In this document: in pieces, positions 5,118 through 36,859 of the stretch
How the letters are laid out: every line of letters begins with the position of its first letter
Numbering within the stretch: the first letter of the stretch is position 1
Origin: Clostridia bacterium
Lineage (GTDB): Bacteria > Bacillota > Clostridia > Christensenellales > Pumilibacteraceae
Length of the DNA: 42,350 nucleotides
Reading direction: 5' to 3'
NCBI GenBank assembly: GCA_013316045.1
Contig: WSNJ01000003.1
Coordinates: forward strand, 1 to 42,350
The notes under the pieces: model-generated
The model's database searches: none
What the model was told of the DNA's origin: nothing
The model's input: the letters and a program-made list of their open reading frames with translations, nothing else
Translations under genes and position numbers: made by a program

Positions 5118-5307
5118 TTTGACGGTGCATTCACCACACTCTGCGGGCTACGTGCGCCCGTGTCGGCTCAGTCGTTTATGCGAAATAAACTCCTTTCGCC
5201 GCCTTGCCGCCTGTTGCCCGCATAGCGCGCGACTGCACCGTCAAAGTTTTTGCATTCACCACGCTCTGCGGGCTACGTGCGCCCGTGTCGGCTCGGTCGT
5301 TTATGCG
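5118..5307. repeat. Palindromic and direct-repeat patch after spo0A
   Basis: A perfect 12-bp inverted repeat, TTTGACGGTGCA (5118-5129) and TGCACCGTCAAA (5234-5245), is followed by a short T-run. It could end spo0A transcripts. A direct repeat of about 58 bases with few mismatches occurs at about 5126-5180 and 5250-5307. The patch shares words such as GGCTACGTGCGCCCG and the TCGTTTATGCG...AAATAAACTC core with repeat patches elsewhere, so it looks like a decayed family A element. No gene is seen. Confidence 0.65.
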
Positions 5308-7220: not shown

Positions 7221-7323
7221 CTGTCATTTCGAGCGGAGTGCCGTAGGCACGCAGTCGAGAAATCGCTTTGGATTTATATATTTAAGAGATTTCTCCACTC
7301 GCTTCGCTCGGTCGAAATGACAG
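7221..7323. repeat. Family B MITE-like repeat (copy 1)
   Basis: Terminal inverted repeats CTGTCATTTCGA (7221-7232) and TCGAAATGACAG (7312-7323) bound about 103 bases with an internal GAGAAATC / GATTTCTC pair. Other copies: about 36480-36576 and 36629-36729; half copies near 22410 and 28350. No coding capacity. Confidence 0.8.
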
Positions 7324-7417
7324 AGTCGGGGGTAACGCTTACTACGGTCGAAATGACAGAGCCGGGGCTATCGCTTACTACGGTCGAAATGACAGAGCCG
7401 GGGGTATCGCTTGCGTC
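7310..7417. repeat. Three tandem 36-bp units
   Basis: Units begin at 7310, 7346 and 7382, each opening with GGTCGAAATGACAGAG and continuing with a G-rich and CGCTTACTAC part. The first unit overlaps the right end of the family B element, as if that end had been amplified. Too few and contiguous for CRISPR. Confidence 0.85.
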
Positions 7418-10015: not shown

Positions 10016-10519
10016 GTCGGCGGCGCGGGCACGCACATATAAGGCTACGCCTTGGCGTTCGCGCTACGCGCTCGGCTAAGAGCGGCTACGTGCGGCAAGT
10101 CCGCTCGGTCGAGTATTTCAAAATACACTCCCGTCGCGGACTTGCCGCCTGTTACCGCTCTCTGCACGCACCCGCACCGCCTTGGCGGAGAATGTACCGC
10201 TCTCCGCCGCCTTTTGGTTGTTAGTCGGCACCCGCGCCGCCTTGGCGGCATTAGACCTCATCAGTCGGCTACGCCGACAGCTTCCCCTAGCAGGGGAAGC
10301 CTTGATTAAAGATTAAACTTCTAAACAGGCTTCCCCTTTTAGGGCGCGACGCGGCGGCTTGCCGCAAAAAAGCAATAGTATTGCTTTTTTAGCCTAAGCG
10401 CGGCGCAAGCTATGCTTGCGACAGGCAAGGCTGTGCGGTCGCAAAGCGTAACGACCGACTGCACTGATGAGGTTAATTTCCCACACTACAAAAAACAAAT
10501 TCCAAATATCGGAGAGAAT
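10016..10519. repeat. Repeat mosaic between gatC and gatA
   Basis: Gap of 504 bases without a gene. It holds a family A element at about 10016-10170 with a perfect 13-bp hairpin, GCGGCAAGTCCGC (10092-10104) and GCGGACTTGCCGC (10136-10148); CCGCCTTGGCGG-type palindromes near 10180-10245; a family C inverted repeat GGGGAAGCCT (10293-10302) / AGGCTTCCCC (10327-10336); and a terminator-like AAAAAAGCAA (10366-10375) / TTGCTTTTTT (10381-10390). Short open frames here are made of repeat words and are not genes. Confidence 0.8.
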
Positions 10520-13522: not shown

Positions 13523-13864
13523 ACGTCGGCGTATACGGGCACGTCTTTCCGCTACGTTTGCCGCGCAAGCTCAATCGAGTACGTCTATGTACTCATTCGC
13601 TTGCGCGGCAACTGTTGCGAAAATCCGCACCCGTCTCCGCCGCCTTTTGGGCGGGTTGAGAAACACCCGTCTCCGCCGCCTTTTGGGCGGGTTGAGATAA
13701 TTATAAATCAGAAAGAAAAAAGTATGTTTGCTTGTTCTTGACCTTAAAAAGGTTTTGCCTACTTTTTCTAAAAGTAGGGCATTGGGGGTCCGGGGACAGT
13801 TGCAAGCCCCCGGCGGCTTTTTTGCTCCACTTTTTTTGCCGCGGTAAAAAAGTGGAATTTAATT
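13523..13864. repeat. Family A hairpin repeat and other palindromes after gatB
   Basis: Gap of 342 bases without a gene. Family A copy at about 13526-13657, with TTGCCGCGCAAGC (13558-13570) pairing perfectly with GCTTGCGCGGCAA (13599-13611). It is followed by two tandem copies of a unit containing CCCGTCTCCGCCGCC and TTTTGGGCGGGTTGAG (about 13630-13696). Further on are inverted repeats CCTACTTTT/AAAAGTAGG (13758-13778) and CCACTTTTTT/AAAAAAGTGG (13827-13855). Confidence 0.8.
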
Positions 13865-22305: not shown

Positions 22306-22486
22306 TCGGCGTCGTATACGGGCGCATATAGAACTCGCGTTGCTCGTGGCGTTCGCGCTACGCGCTCGGCTAGTGGCTACGCTCGGTTGCCGCCTTGCTT
22401 TCTCGGTACTGTCATTTCGACCGAAGCGAGCGGTAGCGAACGAAGCGGAGAAATCGCTTAAAACAATCTATAAACTCAAAAAAATC
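22306..22486. repeat. Repeat patch after rpsI
   Basis: Begins with CGGCGTCGTATACGGGCGC, the common left end of family A. It includes a 25-base stretch starting TGGCGTTCGCGCTACGCGC also present near 10050, then a half family B element from about 22410 (TGTCATTTCGACCGAAGCGAG...GAGAAATC). No gene. Confidence 0.7.
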
Positions 22487-27971: not shown

Positions 27972-28424
27972 GGCGGCTACGGCGGCGTATAGCGGCACGT
28001 CTTTCCGCTACGCTTGCCGCGCAAACTCGGTCGAGTACGCCAAAGTACACTCGCTCGTTTGCGCGGCAACTGTTGCGAAAATCCGCACCACTCTCCGCCG
28101 CCTTGTGGGGGGGGATAAACGGCAAACCGACTGTTGCCCGTCTCTACACACATTTTAACCGCCTTGGGCGAGAGAGATACACCGTTTTCCGCCGCCTTGG
28201 GGGGGGGATACACCGCCTTGGCAATATAAAACCGTCTCCGCTCTCCGCCGCCTTGCTCACGGTACTGTACTCAGCCGACATCGTAGACGCGAACGCCCTT
28301 AGCCAAGCGAAGCGCACGCCACGAGCAATGCGAGTACAGCCGTAGGCTGTCATTTCGACCAAGCGACGAAGTCGCGCGTGGAGAAATCTTTCGAAATTAT
28401 CCATAAAAATAAACTATTTAATAA
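27972..28424. repeat. Repeat mosaic between purH and purD
   Basis: Gap of 453 bases without a gene. Family A copy at about 27979-28100: TTGCCGCGCAAAC (28014-28026) pairs perfectly with GTTTGCGCGGCAA (28057-28069). Then come several CCGCCTTG-G(n) units with two G-runs of eight or more (near 28107 and 28201), and a half family B element from about 28347 (TGTCATTTCGACC...GAGAAATC). It interrupts an otherwise compact operon. Confidence 0.8.
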
Positions 28425-36333: not shown

Positions 36334-36859
36334 CGGCTCGACTGCGTATAACGGCACGGATGCGAGCTACGAGCGGCAAGGTCGGCTCGGTCATTTATCG
36401 GGAAATAAACTCCCGTCGCCGACCTGCCGCCTGTTGCCCGCCTGCGCACCGCTCTCCGCAGTCGAGCTATAAGCTTTTATGTCATTTCGAGCGGAGTGCC
36501 GCAAGGCACGCAGTCGAGAAATCTATAAGAAAGAAAAGATTTCTCCGTGCGCGACTTTGTCGCTTAGTCGAAATACTCGCCGTTGGCTCGTGGCTCGGCT
36601 AAGGACAAGAGAACGCAAAGCCCTGTGGTGTCATTTCGACCGAAGTGAGCGGTAGCGAACGGAGTGGAGAAATCTATAAGAAAGGAGAGTTTTATTTGAA
36701 AAGATTTCTCGGCTACGCTCGAAATGACAAACAAGGGAAGTCGCTTAGTCGAAATACTCGCCGTCGTCTCGGTCCTTAGTCGAGCAAAGCGAATGCTGCG
36801 GAGCGAAACGAAGTATTTATCGGAAAATAAATCTTATAAAAAAATCCTGAAAAATAATT
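36334..36859. repeat. Repeat mosaic between veg and the sipL-like gene
   Basis: Holds a family A element (about 36349-36440): GCGGCAAGGTCGGC (36373-36386) pairs with GCCGACCTGCCGC (36418-36430) leaving one bulged A. It also holds two family B elements, 36480 to about 36576 (right end decayed) and 36629-36729 with perfect TGTCATTTCGA / TCGAAATGACA ends. Short open frames are repeat-derived. A sigma-E-type promoter follows. Confidence 0.8.

Follow-up and report, generated by a model that had tools for sequence, protein, structure and literature searches.

The intergenic repeat described here appears to belong to a family of small mobile hairpins, not described before, from one Clostridia group. 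The chances seem about even that it is a mobile DNA hairpin of the non-autonomous kind, which would be recognised through its bottom strand, folded as a single strand, placed at the ends of genes and swapped among copies. Its fold, strand bias, site bias, gain and loss, and module exchange were each computed. The window, i.e., the whole stretch of 42,350 nucleotides that was analysed, is contig C25 of draft genome G000 (1.89 Mb, 94% complete), which comes from a gut bacterium. In this window the covariance model R1, which was built from 21 copies, detects six full copies, all on the + strand. The copies and their associated features are as follows.

5120..5244, + strand: element copy with outer helix TGACGGTGCA/TGCACCGTCA; covariance model score 58.8 bits
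10018..10183, + strand: element copy past the gatC stop codon, interrupted; covariance model score 71.3 bits
12098..13522, + strand: gatB, host gene; its stop codon adjoins the element copy at 13524
13524..13648, + strand: full element copy, starting 1 base past the gatB stop TAA; covariance model R1 score 136.8 bits
13628..13699, + strand: two 36-bp units in tandem carrying the element's 3' arm, the second being a solo 3' arm
27980..28104, + strand: full element copy, 3' of a purH-like gene; covariance model score 146 bits
36339..36465, + strand: full element copy with a unique outer helix, CTCGACTGCG/CGCAGTCGAG; covariance model score 86 bits
40688..40812, + strand: full element copy directly after a TAG stop codon; covariance model score 128.9 bits

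All five copies cited by the first-pass annotation are present, about where it had placed them, and the arm pairs it quoted are correct; the sixth, at 5120-5244, had been overlooked. Part of the 5' end of the 36339 copy is duplicated in tandem immediately upstream. The 5' half of the 5120 copy is duplicated directly (57 bp, 96%; 5126-5182 and 5251-5307), with the second half reaching about 5312. The copy at 10018 is interrupted at 10041-10081, where a different palindromic repeat (AAGGCTACGCCTTGGCGTTCGCGCTACGCGCTCGGCTAAG) contributes approximately 41 bp, and this insert recurs in copies at G000:C35 near 3730 and at L024, seemingly at the same internal position.

With the 13524 copy as BLAST query, 43 matches were obtained in the genome. 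R1 detects approximately 57 distinct full copies in G000, the other listed matches being opposite-strand matches to the palindrome, fragments and weak matches. At the family level, copies were found by R1 in 36 of 61 sampled genomes (12 of 18 genera), and at the order level, under strict filters, in 44 of 297 genomes (20 of 126 genera). Copy length is nearly always 124-127 nt across both the family and the order. When 84,980 species were scanned with a strict pattern, 41 contigs were returned, every one of them titled Clostridia, Clostridiales, Bacillota, Christensenella, or Pumilibacter muris/Anaerocaecibacter muris (Pumilibacteraceae). The viral contigs, phages and plasmids searched held no match to the element. 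Rfam 15 gave no window match above the gathering score, and permissive Rfam thresholds returned sub-threshold miRNA hairpins only, in three loci. The family was not found described in the literature searched, in which coverage of subscription journals was limited.

Each copy forms a single long hairpin, an imperfect palindrome of approximately 125 nt. On the bottom strand the order is P1 (8-10 bp), AGA/TAT, P2, a second AGA/TAT, P3, a mismatch site, P4 and a terminal loop, which holds a small inner hairpin. The mismatch site between P3 and P4 comprises A.A, followed by A.C and G.A (CAACAG/ACGTAG). Among 61 diverse copies, standard pairs occupy 93.5% of pair cells against 69.0% after shuffling, and both-side changes are found in 41 of the 45 pairs. 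Double-change cells number 639 in these copies against 177 when shuffled, and 71 against 18 in a set of 21 copies, a level reached in none of 500 shuffles in either case. The shuffle ignores the kinship of copies; a slide control, which retains it, lowered pairing in the 61 copies from 93.5% to 26-40% when the partner was shifted by 1-3 columns. In the first-pass annotation, covariation had been taken to imply that the folded form is either under selection or copied by some mechanism, and the strong covariation across copies under both controls supports this suggestion.

A constant outer frame had also been proposed, which is not borne out, the outermost helix being highly variable. P1 at the ends is among the parts least conserved in sequence, whereas the terminal loop and the internal mismatches are conserved, the latter most of all. 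On the bottom strand, purines predominate at the three conserved mismatch sites: G.A is found at both AGA/TAT sites in 50 of 61 copies, the A.A mismatch in 59, the A.C in 57 and its accompanying G.A in 48. A host-templated outer arm, in which the 3' arm would be copied from the gene end, was rejected as a rule, pairing past the model ends being raised for 1-2 bases only (0.57 and 0.42 against 0.31 and 0.25).

By folding prediction, the bottom strand is the stabler one in 110 of 114 copies with RNA parameters (mean -11.9 kcal/mol) and in 112 of 114 with DNA parameters, these being related copies rather than 114 independent tests. The same was predicted for 11 of 11 copies from other families of the order. 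In the sense orientation of the 114 copies, A.C exceeds G.U by 170 to 51, with one fixed G.U pair excluded, and T.C exceeds G.A by 159 to 16; on the bottom strand, a sense A.C becomes a wobble G.T and a sense T.C becomes G.A. The covariance model was built in the sense orientation, and any bias would run towards the opposite of the bottom-strand result. Counted by pair, the wobble asymmetry is not significant (sign test, 23 against 13 pairs, p 0.13).

The copies are placed closely at gene ends. In G000, 55 copies have an upstream gene that could be scored; for 52 of them this gene is co-directional, and 40 of these 52 start -4 to +9 nt from the stop codon, 12 exactly after it. A rough null gives approximately 5 sites expected within 9 nt of the stop against 35 observed, for 38 hand-picked sites from which distant ones were left out and with a median element-free spacer of 99 nt. 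The putative host genes, named by sequence inspection, include gatC, gatB, gyrB, lysS, nusG, rpsL, rpsF, dnaB, tpiA, purH and guaB. An in-frame protein-coding insert, like the Rickettsia palindromic elements, was rejected, as copies occur in all frames relative to the stop. Three unrelated proteins (G000:C12:6879, C12:2499 and C18:9651) end in GGA[G/D]THI, and there the element supplies the last codons and the stop.

Orientation is also uniform along long contigs. In four long contigs of three genomes, 25 of 25 counted copies lie along the majority gene strand, which carries 71-82% of the genes in those contigs (chance of 25/25 about 5e-4 at 0.74), and local GC skew in the element orientation is positive in 93 of 101 copies. 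Following the majority strand and positive GC skew, the copies thus present their stabler bottom strand as the leading-strand template. In 25 of 30 chromosomal integrons, the bottom strand is reported to lie likewise (PMC5371416).

Mobility, raised as a possibility in the first-pass annotation, gains support from presence and absence between sister species and from near-identical copies at unrelated loci. Here gatB is separated from its neighbour gene by about 340 bp, element included; in G001 and G023 the gatB site is empty, and the same neighbour gene follows within tens of bp. At nusG, G065 carries a copy that its syntenic sister G002 lacks, the two sites being near-identical through the stop TAA and then unrelated. 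Another copy is likewise restricted to G065 in this comparison, and at pflB there is a full copy in G002 and a truncated one in G065. One copy common to both genomes keeps its core, P1, P2 and P3 having been replaced, with compensatory changes. Some same-genome pairs at unrelated loci are 97-99% identical in the core and 53% in the outer helices; in others the outer part is the more alike (93%, against 62% for the core), and pairing is kept in both kinds. These mixed identities indicate that part of the compensatory change is the replacement of a contiguous inner segment rather than stepwise mutation. By eye, no target-site duplication was seen at the copies, and neither an excision product nor a split copy around a transposase was recognised. 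Sites common to several genera include gyrB, lysS, nusG, pflB, dnaB and secA, and approximately 4 of 24 sampled G009 copies are at shared sites. Retention or preferred sites therefore also exist; retention or a host function becomes possible, which counts against a mobile hairpin.

For a mobile DNA hairpin we infer a single-stranded substrate, an enzyme and a choice of target. The enzyme would recognise the folded single-stranded bottom strand through its mismatches and shape, not through stem sequence, and would insert or exchange the folded hairpin at gene ends. Compensatory change may then have two sources, namely selection for the fold and the exchange of entire paired modules for versions copied from other loci of the genome.

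Copies that follow co-directional stop codons would, by position, be transcribed with the upstream gene; many of these genes have housekeeping roles, and a very stable fold is predicted for the sense RNA as well (mean -65 kcal/mol). Such features would suit an RNA hairpin formed by the sense strand in the 3' UTR of housekeeping mRNAs, serving as a stabiliser, processing site or insulator under ordinary compensatory evolution. This explanation appears unlikely, since the better antisense fold in 110 of 114 copies argues against an mRNA hairpin, the sense excess of A.C over G.U is the reverse of what RNA selection leaves, and elements are gained and lost between sister species. The RNA-structured element of the first-pass annotation is accordingly disfavoured in the sense direction. 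The strand asymmetry that suits bottom-strand DNA would equally suit an antisense-strand RNA as the functional molecule, with G.U pairs outnumbering A.C by 131 to 43. We hold such an RNA to be quite unlikely, as promoters that would read the antisense strand are not enriched in the 3' flanks (best match 7.79 of 12 against 7.81 shuffled, for the sigma-70 consensus only), conserved sequence was not seen beyond the element and no Rfam family was matched.

A folded or cruciform chromosomal DNA site that serves the host near leading-strand gene ends, for instance in replication-transcription conflict, supercoiling or recombination, and that is spread by gene conversion rather than transposition, would be consistent with the orientation uniform with replication, with retention at some orthologous genes and with module exchange between copies. 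Nevertheless, such a site is improbable, as no more than 20 of the order's 126 genera gave detections under strict filters and a congener has an empty gatB site. Matched arms could in principle also arise without selection, by hairpin-templated mutation (quasi-palindrome correction): double changes far exceed single-sided ones (71 against 10 in the 21 copies), and P1, P2 and P3 were replaced together at one orthologous site. However, such mutation would erase the mismatches too, and these are the most conserved part, which rules it out as the sole cause of the matching arms; it is largely refuted and very improbable as an explanation.

ERIC and other MITE-like palindromes are intergenic, imperfect and about 125 bp long, and so is the element; by description, it differs from them in stems that are almost wholly replaceable, in its tight placement at stop codons and in its strand-specific fold. 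It resembles attC and REPIN as a palindrome kept by compensatory change and departs from both on the tests that define them. In common with attC sites (e.g., Vibrio VCR, about 126 bp), it is palindromic, lies just after a stop codon and is oriented with the gene; attC is recognised from the shape of its folded bottom strand and not from its sequence, and the element's bottom strand is likewise predicted to fold better. The top strands of attC sites end in RYYYAAC/GTTRRRY boxes, none of which was seen in the element by inspection. Unlike attC sites, the copies form no cassette array and stand singly after gatB, gyrB, nusG, rpsL, lysS and other genes, kilobases apart. Chromosomal attC sites are without a bottom-strand stability bias (PMC5371416), whereas the element has one. 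With REP and REPIN sequences it shares the form of dispersed extragenic hairpins, and the earlier label REP-like holds as an analogy only, the unit being 125 nt instead of 20-40. Compensatory changes have been reported for REPINs (PMC3116915), so this feature alone is not new, and GTAG REPs may provide stop codons from their ends (PMC3733652). Compared with REP/REPIN, the element is one fixed-length 125-nt hairpin with conserved internal mismatches rather than conserved ends; two conserved REP ends inverted around a variable spacer were not found, the ends (P1) being variable.

The search for a partner enzyme covered several families. The first-pass annotation had suggested looking for a REP-associated transposase, and Y1_Tnp (RAYT, PF01797) has no match in G000 (94% complete) nor in five other copy-bearing genomes, G001, G002, G126, G121 and G154; it is present in some further copy-bearing genomes. 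The integron integrase model TIGR02249 was above cut-off in 0 of 10 genomes (best 42.7 bits against a cut-off of 265), and reverse transcriptases are missing from several copy-rich genomes. None of these three is found in every copy-bearing genome tested, and each was rejected as a common partner. G000 carries only seemingly ordinary tyrosine recombinases.

Tentatively, the element may represent a novel type of DNA site, mobile or recombining, that is read purely as a folded single strand, occurs as single copies at Clostridia stop codons and is served by an enzyme other than an integron integrase or Y1/RAYT. If folded single-stranded DNA is the substrate, gut Clostridia would possess a further structure-read recombination system alongside integrons and IS200/IS605/REPIN, and the enzyme could be looked for by setting closely related genomes that carry active copies against those that lack them. 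Repeats can covary strongly without being RNA, and strand-specific mismatch types can separate folded DNA or an antisense strand from mRNA, which bears on covariation-based RNA discovery.

Partial and neighbouring repeats accompany the full copies. Solo 3' arms (CACCCGTCTCCGCCGCCTT..) lie downstream of full copies in the window at 13628-13699, 28086, 28180, 28228 and 10195, and solo 5' arms are seemingly rarer. A second dispersed repeat, TGTCATTTCGACCGAAGCGAGCGGTAGCGAACG..GAGAAATC, occurs in the window at 22410-22455, 36629-36674 and near 28349, often adjoining element copies. At 7299-7412, three 36-bp units in tandem (GGTCGAAATGACAGAGCCGGGG..) are similar to this second family.
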